64,000 bases of DNA. It comes from Chondrilla cf. caribensis. Its lineage: Eukaryota > Porifera > Demospongiae > Chondrillida > Chondrillidae. The stretch lies in assembly GCA_964020155.1 (NCBI GenBank), contig OZ026548.1:3177397-3241396 (forward strand), in the 5' to 3' direction. Shown in pieces: positions 29,938 through 45,579 of the stretch. A program made the translations under genes and the position numbers. Each line of letters begins with the position of its first letter. Position 1 is the first letter of the stretch. Below the pieces are notes generated by a model that was not told where the DNA came from, ran no database searches, and worked only from the letters and a program-made list of their open reading frames with translations.

Positions 29938-30541
29938 CTAGGTGTGAACGTGGTTCAGGACCTCGCTAGTTACGTACGTGAAGTTAAAATGGCGGCATGT
30001 TTGGCGTATGTTTACATCCGATAGATACTGTCACAATGAATTAGTGTATTTTGAAGTTCGAAGGAAGTTATAAAAAGTCATCATTGTGAAGGTATTTGAT
30101 CATCATTAATAGGTGTTATTATGATATCTGTAAAATAATGTTATCTTTATGGTTTGTAGCTAAACTTTGCAAGTTTAATGTGTGGTAGCTCAGTATAATA
30201 ATTTTAGTTTGTAATGAAGTTCAAAATTAAGAATTTGGTTTGAAATTGAAATTAAATCTATAAATTGTATCATAAGAGGAAAAATCCATACAATATTGAT
30301 TTAGTAAAAATTGAAATTAAATCAATAGATTGTAGCTATCATAACATGAAAAATCTGTACAATAAGGATCAGTAATAAATTTGAAAAATCAAGAATTATT
30401 CTTGAAATCGAAATTAAAGGTATGGATTGAATCATCATGGGAATGAAAAGTGTAAGATCAATGTGAATTTCACAAATACAAACACAACAGACAAGTTATT
30501 CCTGGAAACACAAGATCATCTGTTATAAGCTGTTACGATAG
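29938..30541. other. Helitron 3' terminal non-coding region
   Basis: Holds the CTAG terminus and hairpin, a GGCGGCAT motif near 29992, then AT-rich DNA with an imperfect direct repeat of (TTGAAATTAAAT, near 30243-30420, three or four times). No gene was seen. Confidence 0.6.
29945..29957 (-). terminator. Helitron 3' hairpin before the CTAG end
   Basis: 5-bp stem TGAAC/GTTCA with a 3-nt GTG loop, 7 nt from the CTAG terminus on the minus strand. In Helitrons such a hairpin marks the end of rolling-circle transfer. It is shorter than many described ones, so the assignment rests on position. Confidence 0.6.
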
Positions 30542-31672
30542 TTACATTTTGCGATACACTCCACTAAGTGTACTTCCTCTGTATGTCAGGCTGAATGGTT
30601 GAGATAGAAGTAGGGCCTCTTGTGTTACATCCTCTTGTGGGAGGTTAGCAATGGTGGAGAGGTGGAGGCTGCTGGCAAAAAGGTTCAGCGGTGCTGGCAG
30701 GCTTGGTGCTTTAACAAGGATCTTGGCTGTTATGATTGTTTCGCACTGATCAAGTCTTTGAATCATCTGGCAATTTTCGCAAGTTGCTATCTTGCTGTTT
30801 GTAGTAGACATGTTCAATTTTCCCTTGCAATGTCTTGTCAAGCACTTTGCATTTTGCTGGAAATTAGTAATACCAACTACGATGGCATCATCACATTCTT
30901 TGCTGATGTTGTGTGACATTTGCATGTCATCGTCATGGTCTGCAACATTTGCAATATCAGGTATTTGAGTGGCAGATGATTCTGTTGTAAATGTAAAATA
31001 CTTTTCTTGATAAAATTCACCCACGGTAATGTTCGTGAATTGATATGAAGTGCCTTCCTCAAGAGTGTTGATGTCCTCTTCCCACAATTGTAAAGTGGCT
31101 GTTTTTGTTGTATCAGCAATGATTACTTTTTGAATAGTCTTCTTTGTTGCATGTCCCACTGTCATTGGGGTTTTTACAGTTATCACTTTGGCTTTAAAGT
31201 CGACTTTTGTGTACTTCTGAAGCAATGGTGTTTCGTCTAGTGTAATGGTAGTGTTGATCATGCTGCAATCTGGTTTTATGTCATAGACAGAATCAGATTT
31301 TTCAAAGGTAGTTTTTCCAGTGTTAATAAATAGCTGTGTTTCTTTGTCATTCTTCCCTTTGTATAGATTGCAGTTTTTCATTAGGACGGTTTCTCTTGTC
31401 TGATGGAATCTGGCTAAGTCTTCGTGCAGTGCTTCAGAGAATCCCACAAATCTTATCAGCTGCTGACCGTCTGAGAGTTGACCATCAAAGTATGGTGAGT
31501 GGTCTGATCTCTTCTTCTTCATAGGTGATAGATGTGTGACTAAACCTTCAACATTTGCATTACCACGTATGTCGTCCACAATTGCCTTCTTAGGGGAAAT
31601 AGGTACCTCTGGTGCTTGCAAAGTGGTTGTCGCTGGTCGTTTTCCTTTATATTCACTTGAACTTTCAGCCAT
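30542..31672 (-). CDS. RPA-like OB-fold single-strand-DNA-binding protein of the Helitron
   Basis: Intact 376-residue frame. The N-terminal ~55 residues are basic and disordered-looking (GKRPATTT, SPMKKKRSD). The middle holds two OB-like stretches: one around residues 65-125, and one from about 150 to 240 with KKTIQKVIIADTTKTATLQLW and GEFYQEKYFTF, which is the strand pattern of RPA70-type OB folds. A C..C...C..C zinc ribbon (CLTRHC ... CENC, about residues 278-305) resembles RPA DBD-C. Helitrons of plants and some animals carry such RPA genes, thought to coat single-stranded DNA during rolling-circle replication. It is co-oriented with and downstream of the Rep-helicase gene, with 857 bp between them. 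The start is the first ATG after stops. Confidence 0.8.
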   Translation of the reverse strand: MAESSSEYKGKRPATTTLQAPEVPISPKKAIVDDIRGNANVEGLVTHLSPMKKKRSDHSPYFDGQLSDGQQLIRFVGFSEALHEDLARFHQTRETVLMKNCNLYKGKNDKETQLFINTGKTTFEKSDSVYDIKPDCSMINTTITLDETPLLQKYTKVDFKAKVITVKTPMTVGHATKKTIQKVIIADTTKTATLQLWEEDINTLEEGTSYQFTNITVGEFYQEKYFTFTTESSATQIPDIANVADHDDDMQMSHNISKECDDAIVVGITNFQQNAKCLTRHCKGKLNMSTTNSKIATCENCQMIQRLDQCETIITAKILVKAPSLPAPLNLFASSLHLSTIANLPQEDVTQEALLLSQPFSLTYRGSTLSGVYRKM

Positions 31673-32529
31673 CTTTCAATTTTTAATGATAGCTAGCTAT
31701 GTACTAAACAACAAGCAAGATTGATGAAATTCAGTGCAAGCTTTTATATTTGTAGGAAAGGAAATATGAAAGGAAGTACAGAGTTTGACACCTTGGTAAC
31801 AGATATCAAGGAATTAGTAAAGATGTCAATGTGGGGTATAGTATAGGTGGAATGTTGTCAGGGGAAATGAATGGCAATGGGATATTAATAGTTGCCTTGC
31901 AAGCAGGAAGTACAGGAAATAAAACAGGAAGTATAGGAGATAGGAAAAGGAAGTGGAGGAAATAGGATAAGGAAGTACGGAAGAAAAGGGAAATTGATTT
32001 GTAGTACTGTGACTTGTATGTGAAATTTGAATAGGCATTGTATTATGTATAATAATATTATGGATACTTATTACTTACATAGAGATGGGATGTTGAAATC
32101 CATGTATTCAATTTGATGAGTGTATGAAGGTCAGCTTTTGCCAGAAATTGTATCTTCAGGATGTTCTATGGCCTGTATCATGTGTAAAGAAAAGATCAGA
32201 AGTACTGTAGATGTAAATCAAAGTAAGTATTATATGTATGTATGGACATTTATTCACTATAATATTATATATTCACTGACCTTGAACTGATATACCTATA
32301 GATGATAGTATTAACTTAAGTGTATATTATGTGATTTACATAATGTATTATATTAGCTGGAATTCTTCGATGTATTTTTAGATGACCAATTTTGCTACAT
32401 TTGTGGAAGCAATTGACTAAGTAATGTGTTTGTTAATGAATTCAGTTGAAATGGGCTTTGTGATGAAAATATTATGCATATGTGAGATGCAGTTTATTTG
32501 TGTGTACATATTTTGTTTAGTTCATATGT
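31673..32529. other. Spacer between the two Helitron genes
   Basis: AT-rich. Contains a polypurine run on the plus strand at about 31880-31990 (GGAAGTA/AGGAAA repeats) and no supported gene. The promoter of the RPA-like gene presumably lies in its upper part. Confidence 0.5.
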
Positions 32530-35500
32530 TTATGTATGTGTACGAGATGTAGATTGAAGTGTCGCATGAATTGTTTCCAGGCGGTTTTCTTCATTGATTC
32601 TTGCCATGATGTGTTTGCTTTTTGAAATGCTGTCAAGTCTCTTGAAAGTCATTTCTTTGATCAAAATGTCATCAAGTCGTCTTAGTCGTGATAGTGCTAC
32701 GAATGTGAGGCCAGGAGTTCTTTCACTATTTCCCAAATCAATAACAGCTTTTTCTAATGTTTGACCCTGTGATTTATGAATTGTCATTGCATAACACAGT
32801 CTGAGTGGTATTTGCTTTCGTGAATGTATAGTATTAGTCATCCATTCAAATGTAATGGGTGGAATTGGTACCCAGAGAGGATGTTCACTTATGAATGCTG
32901 GTCCTTTGTATTTGTTGAATTCTACTAGTATTGAGATTGGAAGTGAAGGTGGTTTTTGGTTTTCTTTATATAAAATATCTTTTACAATACCTATGGCACC
33001 GTTGCATAGTCCTGTTTGTTGCCATAAGTTTGAAGTTAGCATGACTTTAGAGTTCTTTGATAGGAAAACAATAGAATCTAAATTCCCAGCTTCATCTGAT
33101 TTTGTGGCAGCTGCTATGTTGTCTGAGTTGATGGCTTCAATTTTCGCAATAGGATTTGCAAGTTTTTGTAGCATTTTATAGTTATGTTGTGTAACACTTT
33201 CCTTATCAAAAAATAAGTGAGTAGCATTTTGAAATTCTCTGCAATTAGAAACATTAGTTGGTGTCCTTGTTAAAAGAGTATGCCAATGTTGTTGAGTTAT
33301 GTGTCCATTGCGTATTGCTGTTAATAACTCTCTAAAGTTGTGTGTTGAATTATTTTGCCTCATTTGTTGTTTGAGTTGTACTACAGTATTGAATAGTCTA
33401 AATAGGAGGTACCCATCATTGTAATCTTGGTTCTGTGTATTAGGCCAAATGTATAGAGGTTTGTCACCAACAGGTGGTAATTGTGCAAAGTCTCCAATAA
33501 GTATGATAGATAGTCCACCAAATGGTTGTTCATAATGTCCTGTTGCTTGCTTGAGACGTTTGTTTATCCATGAAAGTCCTCTTTGACCTAACATTGACAT
33601 TTCATCTATGATAATATACTTTTTGTGTTTTAGTTTTTCTTGTAACCGTATAAGTGATGAACCTTTTAATTCTGTATTTCTGAGTTGTCGTATTGGTAAT
33701 TGTAAGAGGGAATGAATTGTCATACCATGTATATTGAATGCTGCTATACCAGTAGTTGCTGTTAGAAAACATGATTCTTTTAGTAATGATGATATTGCGT
33801 GTATGAGGTAAGATTTACCTGTACCGGCTGTACCATATATTATCATATGTAATGCATTAGGTGTTACAGTAGCAGTGTCTTCATTCAAGCTATGTGTGTA
33901 ATGCTTGTGTACTATGTCATAAGCCAAACGTTGTTCGTTGTTCAGTGCACTGATGTTTATTACTGCTGTTGATTCCATTTGATATAGCAAATCAGGATGT
34001 TCCTTCTTTTTGAGATAAATCCAATTGGCACTTTCAATAATTTCTTGTTGTGTGAGACTGGTTTCTGATTGTTGCCAATATAGGTCATCTGCGTCTGAGT
34101 CTACATTTTCACCTTCAGATTGATGCTGAAAAGTCATACTTTGTTGACATAGTAGCATCCACTCATCTTGATCATTGTGTAATGTGTTTTGTGTAAATGT
34201 TATGTCATTTTCTATTTCTTGGTGATCATGAAGATAACGTTCTATGTGTTCAAGCTCTTCTTGTAATTGTGGTAAACATTGCTGTGCATTGACAGTTTTA
34301 AGAAAATCATGATAAGCTGTAATGTATGTGGCATCTGTGTCAGGAAGATTATTCCATGCATTGGACGGCTGTCTATGCCAAGGTTTGTATTTGATAAGTT
34401 GATATTTGCAGTATTGTGGATAATTCTTTCCTTGTGGATGTGAAGAATAGTTAGGAAAAGTACGTACAATAACTTCTTTATTTCGTTTTTTTAATTTATT
34501 TTGATGTACATAGAAATGAGAGGCAAATGTCATTAAGTTCATGTTTTGTATGCTAGTGTCAACTGTTTGTTGAACTCTTTTGGCATAAAAGTCCATTAGT
34601 GATAAGTTTGTTGACAGTTGTAAAGGTGAAGAATTTGGATGAATTACCACACTTCTTGAATTATCCAATAAAATGGTAGTGAAAGTATAAGTGCAACTGT
34701 ATAATGGCAAACCAAGTAACATATGAGCTGTTTCTTGTGCACTAAAATCACGTTCTCCTATAGACTTAATCATAGCTGAGCGAATAGCACTTTGTGTTTG
34801 TGAGGCTTGTGTTAGTTTGGTTACGCATGTTTGAAAAATTTGTTTTGCAGTTTGTGATTGGACTTCAGCTTTGGCAGCATATTTGGTCATATATCTTACA
34901 CAGTCTTCAATGTCTATGATTACTTGTAGGTCTACATTTGCTCTCCAATGTTTGAGCATTGTAGGGTTATGAGTATTTATTAATGGGTCATTTCGCTTAG
35001 TTATCACTCTTGCCCTTGTTCTACCATCAAGCAAAGTTTCAAATTGTATATCAGTTGCATGTTGCATTGGACGTGGATAGTCAAATCTACAAGTTGGTTG
35101 TGATTGGCCGGATTTCTTTTGTAGACAATATGCTGCATTGCATCTTGTATGTCTTTGCACAGTATTTACAAGTGTAATATAATCCTCTTCAGTATCTGTG
35201 ATGTCCAATGGATTTTTTGCTGCTGGGTGATTTTCAGGTGTAGGTGTGCGCCAGTTTTCTGATGGAGTTGAATTGTTGAATGTTGTTGTTAGCCAGTCAC
35301 AGTAATTGATTACAGTTTGTTTGGCTATGTTGCCTTCAATTAGTATTTGTTCTTGTACAGTGGTAGGTATATCATCTATGTTAGTTTGTAAGCTATTTTC
35401 AATTTTCCATGCCAATGCTGCTTTTTTGATCAAATGACAAAGACCAGGATCATTTTTAAGTTTAGCACACCCGTGAACATGTGGACTGCCACGTGATTGA

Positions 35501-38109
35501 TACTCAAATCTATACCAATGCCATTCTGCGTGTAGTGTTTCGTATAGCCAATATTTTACAAAATCTGAGACTCTGTTTGTGAAGTACCAATCTGTGATAT
35601 GGGGATTGTTGATGACAGCTTTTATTCTCATTGGATGTGTTGGTTTATCAGTGTCATGTGGTAGTAATGCATGCAATTCTGGCCAATATGTATCAGCAGA
35701 TGAAACTGTCCAAAAGAATGTTGGTGCACCTTTATTTTGTACCAATGCTTTCAGTTCTAATGAACGTTGATACCAGTATTGTTTGGTGCCCTGTAATTTG
35801 CTAACATATCTCTGTAAGCGTGACATCAACTGTTCTGAGTTCATTTTGCCAACCATGTCTCTCAATTGTTGCACAGTTAGAGTTGCATCAGCAGGGTTTT
35901 GTTTTAGGTATACATTAGCTTGTGTCAGCAAGTGATGTCGTTGTTTCATGTTCAGTGCCCAATATGGGAATCTAGGATGTGATGCAAATCGCCATACAGC
36001 TTTGTTGTTCACTATTTCAGCAAATCGTATCAAATGTTTTAAAAATTCTGTATATGTTACATCATGTTGACGATTTTTTGTAGTTGGATCTCCTGTTCCG
36101 TATGGAAATAATGCTGGGAAAGCCATGGTTGCAAGGCCTTCAGTTTGGAATTCACTGATTGGTGTTTGCGATAATGGAGGCCATTGTAATGGGGAGTTTT
36201 TATTATTGATTATATTTCTTATTGATTCTATCTCATTTTGTTTATGATGTGGTATTGATATAAAAGATGTATAGTTATGTTCTGACAAATCTTGGTTGTC
36301 ATCATTATTTAATCTCATATCAATTTCATCCTTGTCATATGTATTATCAATGTTATTATTGTCATTGGTTTCTGTCATAGTATTAGTTTGTTCACTTTCA
36401 TTACAATTGATGTCATGCTGGGATTCAACAGTGTTGGTTTGTAATACTGTTGGACTAACTGCATTGTTAATCTGAAATATCTCTTCTGGTACACCATTCT
36501 CAGGTAATTGCTGTATGTTGATATGATCAATAACAATAGATTTGTAGAAAGGATTGTTTTTTTGTAACCAAATTAGTGCATTAAGAATCTTGTCTCTGCG
36601 TACTGTAAAATCTGCATAGGTATCATTGGTACCAGATCGTCTTAGTACAAGTATGGGTAAATTATTTATGTTTGGTGGTAGTTTATCAAGTAGTGATTGC
36701 ACATCTTGTGATAAGTTTAATACATGACCTTTATATCCACGTTGACCACCTTGCTTTTTGTAAATGTACATAATGGGTGATGCTCGGGCTATCAACATTT
36801 CTTCAATTTGTGTTAAGTCTTGTAAACATTCTGGTACTGAACCAGGGTTCATATTGTTTGCTTGGGAGTACTTTTTTGGAGTACTTTTGTCACAGGTACA
36901 TCTTTTGCATTCATACATGTGTTTGCATGTTTTGTAACGTGATGGCCACATTTCATGACAAGTTGTGCAAAGGGATTGTTTCCACTGAACTTGTTGGTTA
37001 TGGAAGTTATTCATTGTGTTTGCATGACTTTGACTGTGTTCGCTTGTGCATGATGCATTGTTGCATGATTCTTTTTGCAATTGTTGCGAGACAGTACTCT
37101 CACATTGCATTGACACTTCATCATGAGATGTATTGTCAGATGTGTTTGAATGGACCATAGGTAATGTCTGTGTTTGCATTTCTTTTTGTGTTTGAATTGG
37201 TTTTGTCTGTGTCACACATCGTGTCACAGTGCATGATTGTAATTGATTGTGATGATTAGTTTGCAATGTATTGTTTTGATTTGAGTTTTGCAATATTTGA
37301 TAATTGTTTGATTCTTCTTGCATAGGTTCCATAGAGTGGGAATCTTCCACCTATTTGAAAAAGAATGAGAATTTTATTTCCTCAATGATAGTAAAACATG
37401 TGTTATGCTCTCATCTGTATAGATTATCATATATTAATAAACTTACACTGTCAACTTCCATTTCTTGAGGGAAATGTGCATAAGAATGTTCTTGCAAGAC
37501 GTGCCTCTGTTTTTTACATTTTGTTGAAATAGTTGCAACTGGTTGTGACAATTGTACATGTAACTTAGCGAAGTTCATATTTCTAAGTTTCCTTTTACGG
37601 GTATAAGTACTAGTAGAAGCCACATGGGAACAATTATTACAATACCAGTCGAAATATTTAACTTTTGTTAAGGTGTGGTACGTATCTTCAGACATATTTA
37701 TACATTTAATGTGATACCAAGAGCTGCAGCCGTCGCATAACACTGCAAAGTGCTTAGCAATTACAATCATCTTACAAGCTGGACAAAAATGTTTAGGACC
37801 TGGATTCAATTCAACATCACCACAGAGTATTAGCATAGTATAAACCATTGTCATATAACATTTTTTGGAAGATTTTGCAAATACACATGAAGAATTTGAT
37901 CGCTTTCTACGTCGTTCTAAGTACCTACGCGAGTTATACCGAGTACCATTGCGTTGATCGTTGAAAACTGTTTTCCGATTATTTCCACCATATGATGCAA
38001 AAAGCCCTCTGGGCTGATGTCTTTTCACATGGAAATCACTAGTTTCCACAAAGAGGAAAATTTCCCACAAGATGAGAAAGACCACAACGGAAAAACGTGG
38101 AGTCGCCAT
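32530..38109 (-). CDS. Helitron Rep-helicase with leader-2A-PHD N-terminus (spliced)
   Basis: Exon 1 is 38109-37447 (221 codons) and exon 2 is 37350-32530. The 96-bp intron begins GTAAGT and ends AAATAG, and both phases are 0, giving 1827 residues. Exon 1: hydrophobic N-terminus (residues ~7-22), basic stretch, 2A motif GDVELNPGP (97-105) and a C4HC3 PHD finger (C109, C112, C125, C128, H133, C136, C157, C160). Exon 2, numbered from its own first residue: Cys-rich region ~128-153, Helitron N-domain ~405-470, HUH motif HVH (624-626), paired tyrosines Y820 and Y824 (YMTKY), Walker A GTAGTGKS (1173-1180), Walker B IIIDE (~1246-1250), GDFAQLPPVG, and motif VI FVALSRLRR near the end. It nicks, strand-transfers and unwinds DNA for rolling-circle transposition. 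Exon 2 opens with GTG just after the acceptor and has no upstream ATG in the intron, which supports the splice; an ATG seven codons in would be an alternative start for a leaderless form. Confidence 0.9.
37795..37818 (-). other. 2A (StopGo) ribosome-skipping motif
   Basis: Codes for DVELNPGP, the full consensus D-(V/I)-E-x-N-P-G-P, preceded by LILCG as in other 2A peptides. Translation would be expected to skip the Gly-Pro bond, releasing a 104-residue leader and leaving a 1723-residue PHD-Rep-helicase starting with Pro. Similar 2A-PHD starts are known from some LINE-type retrotransposons of invertebrates. Confidence 0.8.
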
Positions 38110-38605
38110 CTTCTACTACGCAGCAAGGGCTATGACGTCATGTACAAATGTCTGCCAAGATGGACGTCACCATGGCTGACCAATTCGAGCTCCCGAACGA
38201 CGAATTGACGAACCCCCTTTCGGCGCAATGAGGAATCGAAATTCTGTACGTAAAAACTTTGACAGCCTTCCTGATGATCGTTTTAAGCTTACCGACGGCG
38301 CCTCACCCGGAACACCCGGCCCCTGAGTCAAAGAAACGTGAGTGTCATTCTTGTCCCTATCTCGGCAACTGCTGCCGATCTCGACGAAAGTCTTCCACCT
38401 CCGTCTGTGACGCGTCCGTGCCCCCTTCCGACGGGAGGGACGGATCGCGACCAGCCGGTTGTGAACTCGTGGAATTTGCGCACAAAGAAAGTGCAAATGG
38501 GCCATAAATCCGCGAGTGTCCCGACGAAAAGCAATTAGATGCGTGGGCGACCAACTTTCGACTCGCTATGGACCGGAAACAATTAACCTCGCTAACGCTC
38601 GGTAA
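38110..38605 (-). promoter_or_regulatory. Helitron 5' leader and presumed promoter
   Basis: A GC/CpG-rich 496-bp stretch between the 5' terminus and the ATG of the Rep gene, unlike the AT-rich interior. It holds a perfect CRE palindrome TGACGTCA (38133-38140), 24 bases upstream of the ATG, and a second GACGTCAC half at 38163-38170. Open frames on both strands here overlap one another and look like products of the base composition. Confidence 0.5.
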
Positions 38606-39195: not shown

Positions 39196-39363
39196 CAAAG
39201 TATAGTAGGTAAGTGGAAGAAAGTCCTTATATCCTAATGTTTACTCAACATGTACTGGTGAAGATTCCATGCCCATTTCAGTTTCATGTTGGAAGGTGGG
39301 ATGTTGATGGCAGAGGAGAACACATCTAAGATACACACACATAATATCATACATATGTATACA

Positions 39364-39364
39364 C

Positions 39365-39461
<97 letters not shown>

Positions 39462-39463
39462 AC

Positions 39464-39517
<54 letters not shown>

Positions 39518-39590
39518 CAAACATACACACACATACAAAAAATACACACACACATACACAAACACACGGGTGCCAGCACACATGTAAACA
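39364..39590. repeat. (AC)n with internal poly-A, unit 2
   Basis: Long AC run with an A17-19 tract near 39499-39517. Unit 4 has the same arrangement at about 52078-52250, with a duplicated ATAATATCATACATATG block. Confidence 0.95.
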
Positions 39591-39710
39591 TATACACACA
39601 GCTAATTTTCACAGTATCTAACGGAACTAATACCATGCACAATAGGTAGATTTGCTTGTTCGTACTGAACATATAACATGCAATAATCTCATATATGTAT
39701 CCTGTTCGGA

Positions 39711-39771
39711 TGTGCTGCAGCAGATATAAGGTGTTTGTCTAATTAGTTAACACTTAATCTGCTGCAGTATG
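39711..39771 (+). ncRNA. Pre-miRNA-like hairpin, unit 2
   Basis: Same stem as at 24138-24198 with base changes confined to the loop. Confidence 0.4.
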
Positions 39772-44890: not shown

Positions 44891-45158
44891 TGAGCAGTCT
44901 GAAAGTCAATACCATCAAACAAAAATCAGAAAGGATAGGAAGCTAAGTGACAAACACATAACTTTGAGATACCATCAGTGTTGACATGTAAATGTATAGT
45001 AGGTAAGTGGAAGAATGTCCTTATATCCTAATGTTTACTCAACATGTACTGGTGGAGATTCCATGCCCATTTCAGTTTCATGTTGGAAGGTGGGACGTTG
45101 ATGGCAGAGGAGAACACATCTAAGATACACACACAATATTATACATAATATTATGTAT

Positions 45159-45167
45159 ACACAACAC

Positions 45168-45229
<62 letters not shown>

Positions 45230-45380
45230 ACACACACACGCAGACACACACACAAACACACACACACACACGTACACACACAAACACACACATACACACA
45301 CACGCATACACACACACACACAAACACACGCATACATACACACACAAAAATACACACACACACACACACACACAAACACA
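45159..45380. repeat. Compound (AC)n microsatellite, unit 3
   Basis: Same interruptions as in unit 1, with a few more AC units and one C-to-T change. Confidence 0.95.
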
Positions 45381-45518
45381 CGGGTGCCAGCACACATATA
45401 AACATATACACAGCTAATTTTCACAGTATCTAACGAAACTAATACCATGCACAATAGGTAGATTTGCTTGTTTGTCCTGAACATGTAACATGCAATATTC
45501 TCATATATCCCGTTTGGA

Positions 45519-45579
45519 TGTGCTGCAGCAGATATAAGGTGTTTGTTTGATTAGCTAACACTTAATCTGCTGCAGTATG
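45519..45579 (+). ncRNA. Pre-miRNA-like hairpin, unit 3
   Basis: Identical in stem and loop to the unit 1 hairpin. Confidence 0.4.

Follow-up and report, generated by a model that had tools for sequence, protein, structure and literature searches.

How a Helitron transposase gene came to begin with a hydrophobic leader, a 2A motif and a PHD finger, and what such a start might do, is the question raised by one locus in the genome of the sponge Chondrilla cf. caribensis (137 Mb, 37 contigs). The window analysed here is a stretch of 64,000 nucleotides (C3:3177397-3241396); in locus labels, W denotes the window copy of the element. We lean towards the reading, taken as a whole, that in this autonomous-type Helitron the transposase gene gained a leader-2A-PHD at its N-terminal end, resembling that of long interspersed nuclear elements (LINEs), and has long retained it, and that this module would act through ribosome skipping, partition of the product between membranes and nucleus, and docking on chromatin.

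The transposase gene and its copies

As the initial annotation had proposed, two long frames lie on the minus strand, at 37411-38112 (233 amino acids, stop to stop) and 32530-37350 (1606 amino acids), and they can be joined in phase 0 across the 96-bp stretch 37446-37351 (GTAAGT...TTTTTCAAATAG). Joining 38109-37447 to 37350-32530 gives a predicted protein of 1827 amino acids. Pfam and motif reading bore out the order claimed for it, namely leader, 2A, PHD finger, Rep and helicase. In exon 2, a Helitron_like_N match (E 2.5e-28) identifies the Helitron HUH Rep, and the translation contains GSPHVHG and YMTKYAAK, which we take to be HUH Rep motifs. The same frame carries a Pif1-like superfamily 1 helicase (PIF1, E 1.3e-29) and DUF6570 (E 2.6e-33). 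Exon 1 encodes a C4HC3 PHD finger at residues 109-160 (E 5.5e-9; 36.3 bits against a cut-off of 24), and the closest solved sequences were Pygopus PHD fingers (E 9e-6). Before the finger stands GDVELNPGP, which fits D[VI]ExNPGP, follows a suitable upstream stretch (YMTMVYTMLILC) and ends with the proline at residue 105. The leader starts with a hydrophobic segment (hydropathy 2.76 over 11 residues at position 8); in a single-sequence structure model of exon 1, with a mean predicted local distance difference test score (pLDDT) of 36, moderate confidence was confined to this leader start, where a helix spans residues 4-23. The Pfam matches to exon 2 included no apurinic/apyrimidinic (AP) endonuclease of the Helentron type, and neither exon 1, exon 2 nor ORF3, a further open reading frame of the element, gave a Pfam match to the endonuclease or reverse transcriptase of LINEs.

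The exon 1-intron-exon 2 arrangement was found in five copies at five loci (the window, L040, L046, L048 and L050), and the order including ORF3 is common to all of them, one (L046) having an internal deletion in which exon 2 lost its end and ORF3 its greater part. Both exons are open in the window, L040 and L050, and L048 has an in-frame stop early in exon 2 (codon 43). ORF3 is kept in L040, L048 and L050, and partly in L046. Only 2 differences were counted between L048 and L050 over 8683 aligned bases, indicating that the family moved recently. Further element starts adjoin L046 and L048 in head-to-tail order; upstream of L050 on its strand, at L050:9286-9345, its own 5' end appears in reverse complement, a head-to-head arrangement.

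Across the genome there are nine Helitron_like_N matches, and a leader-2A-PHD exon lies upstream of seven, i.e., the five copies, L060 and the decayed L061. L060 represents a second family: its exon 2 protein is 61% identical, and it keeps the leader, GDIESNPGP, the PHD finger and a phase-0 intron. L061 keeps GDIETNPGP and the PHD finger, and the zinc ligands and G-D-[VI]-E-x-NPGP are conserved in W, L060 and L061. The Helitrons of contigs C21 and C23 (33-34% identical to exon 2) showed no match to exon 1 within the stretches L051, L052 and L062. L051 and L052 belong to a second Helitron lineage, in which the frame opens with arginine/glutamate-rich repeats in place of the 2A-PHD exon. Judged from these alignments, exon 1 belongs to the Helitron and is not an assembly accident, since five copies at five loci and two diverged families keep it.

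The module in other Helitrons and in LINEs

Helitron relatives were collected with exon 2 residues 430-900, and the best 120 of 167 proteins were examined for a 2A upstream of the Rep-helicase, a search that the initial annotation had suggested. Five of the 120 (P0017, P0018, P0032, P0038 and P0039) contain GD[VI]ExNPGP, where 1.6e-5 would be expected by composition and none occurred in the reversed sequences. P0017 and P0018 hold 2A, three PHD fingers, DUF6570, Rep and helicase in a single uninterrupted frame, which is the strongest evidence that module and transposase form one predicted protein. P0052 has the variant 2A GDIHPNPGP, one PHD finger, repeats, DUF6570 and Rep, and the predicted protein ends before a helicase match. 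The three tandem fingers of P0017 and P0018 suggest local finger duplication. In P0038 the 2A directly precedes an OTU protease; in P0032 and P0039 it directly precedes a domain annotated in the database as PF04843, which did not appear in a rescan at E 0.001. P0001, which over the region compared is 99% identical to the window, begins inside the gene, without the separate exon. As many predicted proteins likewise begin inside the gene, the lack of a 2A in the remaining relatives is no proof of its absence. Scans of viral contigs with exon 2, exon 1 and a six-row Helitron alignment confirmed no relative.

A Rep tree was built by a quick method from 113 of 124 rows (11 were dropped for short coverage) and contains some long branches. 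In this tree, the window family (8 rows, support 100) and the group of P0018 (6 rows, 99) fall within one clade of 39 rows (99), where they are not shown as sisters, and the 2A-OTU-type rows fall in a separate clade of 61 rows (100). At least two Helitron groups that are distant from each other therefore carry a 2A. The 2A-PHD fusion described by the initial annotation was thus found, but it is not confined to this Helitron, as Helitrons from other contigs carry 2A-PHD or 2A-OTU-type starts.

2A has reportedly been found in APE-type LINEs (Odon 2013). In the present genome, a degenerate DNA pattern for DVELNPGP gave 13 matches, and none when run backward as a control. Five of the matches are the Helitron copies, and the other eight (L039, L041-L045, L047 and L049) show leader and 2A followed by PHD-type sequence, inside which the frame of L039 ends. 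All three LINE loci tested with Pfam (L041, L042 and L044) encode endonuclease and reverse transcriptase; the PHD finger gives weak matches in these loci, one scoring above the curated cut-off and two slightly below it. That 2A-PHD starts belong to LINE-type elements, as the initial annotation had stated, thus held for LINEs of this very genome, where leader-2A-PHD precedes endonuclease and reverse transcriptase.

The leaders were compared by hydropathy only. W, L060, P0032 and P0039 share one plan: counted back from the last residue of the 2A, a methionine lies at 97-105 residues (103-105 in P0032 and P0039), and it opens a hydrophobic signal-like start that is followed by a basic middle and then by a hydrophobic stretch leading up to the 2A; in P0039 this requires a methionine downstream of the predicted start. 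The LINE loci L041, L042, L044 and L049 follow the same plan over 106-119 residues, with a mostly less basic middle. P0052 is too short for its leader start to be judged.

To relate the modules to each other, 15 of them (12 different) were placed on an unrooted tree of 79 columns, in which five of nine inner branches lack resolution and all LINE rows come from one genome. The seven Helitron rows stand opposite the eight LINE-locus rows across one branch (99/98), which argues against a fresh capture from the sampled LINEs. The same tree gives no direction of transfer, because it is unrooted and its LINE rows all come from one genome. When the 2A-PHD part of the window protein served as query against the protein database, three candidates came back, none of which scored, and P0018 residues 38-140 matched P0018 itself and P0017; hence the database supplied no LINE relatives for a wider tree.

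These results also bear on whether a LINE 5' end merely adjoins a Helitron here, by chance or as an assembly chimera. LINE-type loci with the same module do occur in the genome, but the module recurs at five loci, in two more families and in three proteins from other contigs, exon 1 lies inside sharp element ends, and its 2A-PHD groups with other Helitron modules and not with the sampled LINE modules. On the grounds of this recurrence, the position inside the element and the module tree, we rejected the chimera; it is refuted on present data and keeps hardly any probability.

Capture of the module by a Helitron, as the initial annotation suggested, survived in part. Acquisition is a fair reading: LINEs share the module, another Helitron family shows no match to exon 1 within the stretches compared, and single-frame fusions exist; a direction from LINE to Helitron is not shown by an unrooted tree. 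More broadly, a leader with a signal of the endoplasmic reticulum (ER) type plus 2A may be a mobile control module that crosses element classes. LINEs and Helitrons would use it before a chromatin reader or an OTU-type protease, shedding the leader peptide and splitting the main enzyme between membranes and nucleus, and the 2A-PHD form would be old in Helitrons, since in the tree the modules of two Rep lineages stand together, opposite the sampled LINE modules. We offer this wider proposal tentatively and hold it to be nearly evenly poised, with doubt slightly ahead.

Splicing, selection and a possible mechanism

The intron is predicted from splice-site sequence, phase and length variation among copies. 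Its stretch measures 96, 102 or 105 bp across the five copies, with indels, and exon 1 shows a single 6-bp indel. The acceptor is TAG in the window and CAG in the four other copies. At the matching place, L060 has a 76-bp stretch, GTATGT...TTCCACAG, also in phase 0, and in P0002 (a 77% relative) residues that seem to resemble a pyrimidine-rich acceptor precede the homologous start of exon 2.

Selection differs between the exons. Exon 2 has a ratio of nonsynonymous to synonymous rates (dN/dS) of 0.18-0.24, and between W and L050 its 26 nonsynonymous and 31 synonymous changes (26/57) depart from neutrality (p 2e-8). Exon 1 gave dN/dS values of 1.0-1.8 among near-identical copies, with few changes; between W and L050, its 14 nonsynonymous and 2 synonymous changes (14/16) fit neutrality (p 0.55), and the two exons differ in these counts (Fisher p 0.004). 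The 14 changes fall in the leader (6), the hydrophobic stretch with 2A (1), the PHD region (4) and the tail (3). Over the longer distance between W and L060, synonymous sites of exon 1 are saturated, and identity is 27/57 in the PHD region, 10/18 aligned residues in the hydrophobic stretch with 2A, 17/53 in the leader (31 more gapped) and 15/48 in the tail; GD-[VI]-E-x-NPGP and every zinc ligand remain intact. As these comparisons read, the core of exon 1 is under long-term constraint, with none detectable lately.

The difference in selection is one of several points for exon 1 being a separate small Helitron gene, in which case an unspliced message would yield a 232-residue leader-2A-PHD protein ending in the intron, and the Rep-helicase would start inside exon 2. 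Indeed, the exon 1 frame of the window reaches a stop inside the intron and that of L060 stops just past the donor, and exon 2 of L060 opens with ATG, where the gene predictions P0001 and P0003 start. However, P0017 and P0018 hold module and transposase in one uninterrupted frame, L060 keeps its phase-0 intron with good splice sites, and the acceptor is CAG in four of five copies, so we regard a separate gene as rather unlikely.

A search of the genome with exon 1 gave 113 matches; deletion derivatives were counted among 23 further loci (L016-L038). A PHD block of 115-134 bp with 84-90% identity is retained in all 23, together with the end of ORF3 and some of the exon 2 start; the terminal 32-39 bp are present in 22 and nearly the whole first 606 bp in 19. 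Internal deletion has reduced them to about 1.95-2.07 kb wherever both ends could be identified, and they often lie head to tail. The derivatives thus show that the PHD exon travelled with the Helitron lineage, but do not show this for the 2A. NPGP occurs in none of the 23 loci, where the 2A and the rest of the leader are missing or replaced, and we therefore rejected the derivatives as evidence for an old 2A.

The loss of the 2A stretch from the derivatives, the apparently neutral drift of exon 1 among recent copies and the existence of at least some Helitrons that, judged by sequence, work without the module would all fit a relic, that is, a module fused to the transposase in which 2A and PHD are now inactive and exon 1 is on course to be lost. 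Between W and L060, however, the PHD and 2A regions keep the identities given above and all motif residues, exon 1 stays open in W, L040 and L050, and the recent-copy counts are small (16 changes). We consider a relic unlikely.

Our preferred reading, of an acquired and long-kept module that acts through the 2A, must itself be set against several findings. The lack of detectable recent constraint, with changes that fit neutrality, speaks against exon 1 being essential now, and the derivatives lack NPGP throughout. Moreover, hydropathy revealed no signal-like start at the expected distance in P0018 and P0038, and the stretch before the 2A is less hydrophobic in W than in most others. Together, these observations weigh against it.

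Under the preferred reading, the mRNA would be spliced and translation would begin on the leader, whose first 20-odd residues resemble an ER signal. At NPG|P, about 105 codons in, the ribosome would usually skip the Gly-Pro bond, as is predicted from the 2A motif. Skipping would free the leader as a short peptide, and the PHD-DUF6570-Rep-helicase part, starting with proline, would go to the nucleus. The unskipped, leader-bound form might end up at membranes, where it could not serve transposition, and the 2A would thus set the amount of transposase reaching the nucleus; we infer this partition by analogy with sea urchin 2A signal sequences, as described in PMC4981915. The PHD finger would help the transposase to attach to chromatin at the donor or the target site, a role suggested by the PHD family and in line with a proposal for LINE PHDs in PMC4120745. 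Its sequence is most similar to the Pygopus PHD, and the histone H3 tail is a candidate ligand. ORF3 would coat the displaced strand.

The whole element and its relation to known systems

The initially annotated span, 32530..38109, holds the transposase gene but is not the whole mobile element (29938..~38604), the bounds of which are given by homology with four other copies that stops sharply on both sides (Table 1).

Table 1. Features of the Helitron element in the window
Feature	Position	Strand	Remark
Whole Helitron element, ~8.67 kb	29938..38604	-	5' end uncertain by a few bases (38602-38605)
3' terminal sequence, ends CTAG, short hairpin TGAAC-CAC-GTTCA inside AGGT/ACCT	29938..29963	-	
ORF3, 376 aa from Met, probable OB-fold SSB/RPA-like protein	30542..31675	-	Weak profile match
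Exon 2: DUF6570, HUH Rep, Pif1-like helicase	32530..37350	-	1606 aa frame
PIF1 helicase match	33289..33870	-	Pfam, exon 2 residues 1161-1354
Helitron_like_N (Rep) match including GSPHVHG	35470..35991	-	Pfam, exon 2 residues 454-627
DUF6570	36514..36885	-	Pfam, exon 2 residues 156-279
Predicted phase-0 intron, 96 bp	37351..37446	-	Counterpart of 76 bp in L060
Exon 1: leader, 2A, PHD, tail	37447..38109	-	Open frame and Pfam
PHD finger (C4HC3)	37630..37785	-	Pfam
2A motif GDVELNPGP	37795..37821	-	Motif read in translation
Signal-peptide-like hydrophobic start of leader	38041..38109	-	Hydropathy only

The 3' boundary reads ...CACCTAG with T as the next base. Among the loci searched, TTA stood directly before all 31 starts of the type CCGAGC..TTAGC, and T directly followed 28 of 29 ACNCCTAG-type matches, the exception (L037:2885) being without the terminal sequence. 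The 5' end is (T)TACCGAGC, and a T/T insertion is consistent if the element begins at TACC. The 5' TC and the insertion between A and T of canonical Helitrons were not seen at the element ends, which by their sequence resemble the Helentron/Helitron2 type and not the canonical type. The 3' CTRR with a nearby hairpin that is expected of Helitrons is present as CTAG and the 3' stem. This hairpin does not stand out from shuffled sequence (z -0.87; 46/200 shuffles equally good), DNA folding of both ends gave nothing beyond shuffles, and an Rfam scan of the window at gathering scores gave no match. The stem has a shorter loop and lies nearer the end than the canonical stem described in PMC4067079.

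ORF3 had no Pfam match, and its single-sequence structure model had a mean pLDDT of 30. A profile of the window ORF3 and one L061 fragment weakly matched single-stranded DNA binding (SSB) proteins in the PDB (E 0.0095-0.012) and an uncharacterised chain (E 0.004); ORF3 is therefore likely, though not proven, to encode an SSB/RPA-like protein with an OB fold. Outside the element, window positions 39234-39738 and 45035-45550 hold GT/AC microsatellites with alike flanking translations (e.g., FQHETEMGMES..PVHVE), which look like one stretch duplicated about 5.8 kb away.

By titles and abstract starts, the open-access literature describes no 2A or PHD in a Helitron transposase, with Repbase reports and most subscription papers outside the scope of the search; on these searches the leader-2A-PHD-Helitron appears to be new, and the view that 2A-PHD was unreported as a Helitron N-terminus met no published counterexample there. 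Real skipping would make this, within the literature searched, the first case of a translational recoding signal reported from a rolling-circle DNA transposon. If the fusion is as we read it, it would join the Helentron endonuclease as a second example of a Helitron transposase that carries a LINE-type module. That two element classes share the module suggests that both need to separate a leader of membrane type from an enzyme that works in the nucleus, and two questions become testable, namely how Helitrons control dose and how they choose chromatin.

With animal Helitrons, Helitron2 and Helentrons the element shares the HUH Rep and Pif1-like helicase, the CTAG 3' end with a short hairpin, non-autonomous deletion derivatives and a probable SSB-like second open reading frame; it differs in its N-terminal leader-2A-PHD and in that no endonuclease domain was found in exon 2. 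According to PMC4067079, the extra genes associated with Helentrons are RPA, OTU and SET, and the Helentron endonuclease is closest to that of CR1 LINEs; the term PHD has zero occurrences in a term count of that paper. The C-terminal AP endonuclease of Helentrons (same source) is likewise a LINE-type domain fused to a Helitron transposase, but at the opposite end of the protein and as a different module.

CR1/L2-type LINEs with an N-terminal PHD (ORF1 type III and others) share the PHD finger, and the LINEs of this genome share the order leader-2A-PHD, there before endonuclease and reverse transcriptase. In CR1/L2-type LINEs the remainder is endonuclease-reverse transcriptase, whereas here it is Rep-helicase. 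PHD is widespread in CR1 and L2 ORF1s according to PMC4120745, in which neither Helitron nor NPGP is named. In sea urchin NLR proteins, 2A doubles as a signal sequence and gives dual targeting, as set out in PMC4981915, which does not mention Helitrons. Both systems combine 2A with an N-terminal signal sequence, but in the sea urchin proteins the 26-residue N-terminal 2A is itself the signal, whereas the Helitron described here would have a separate signal-like start about 100 residues before its 2A.

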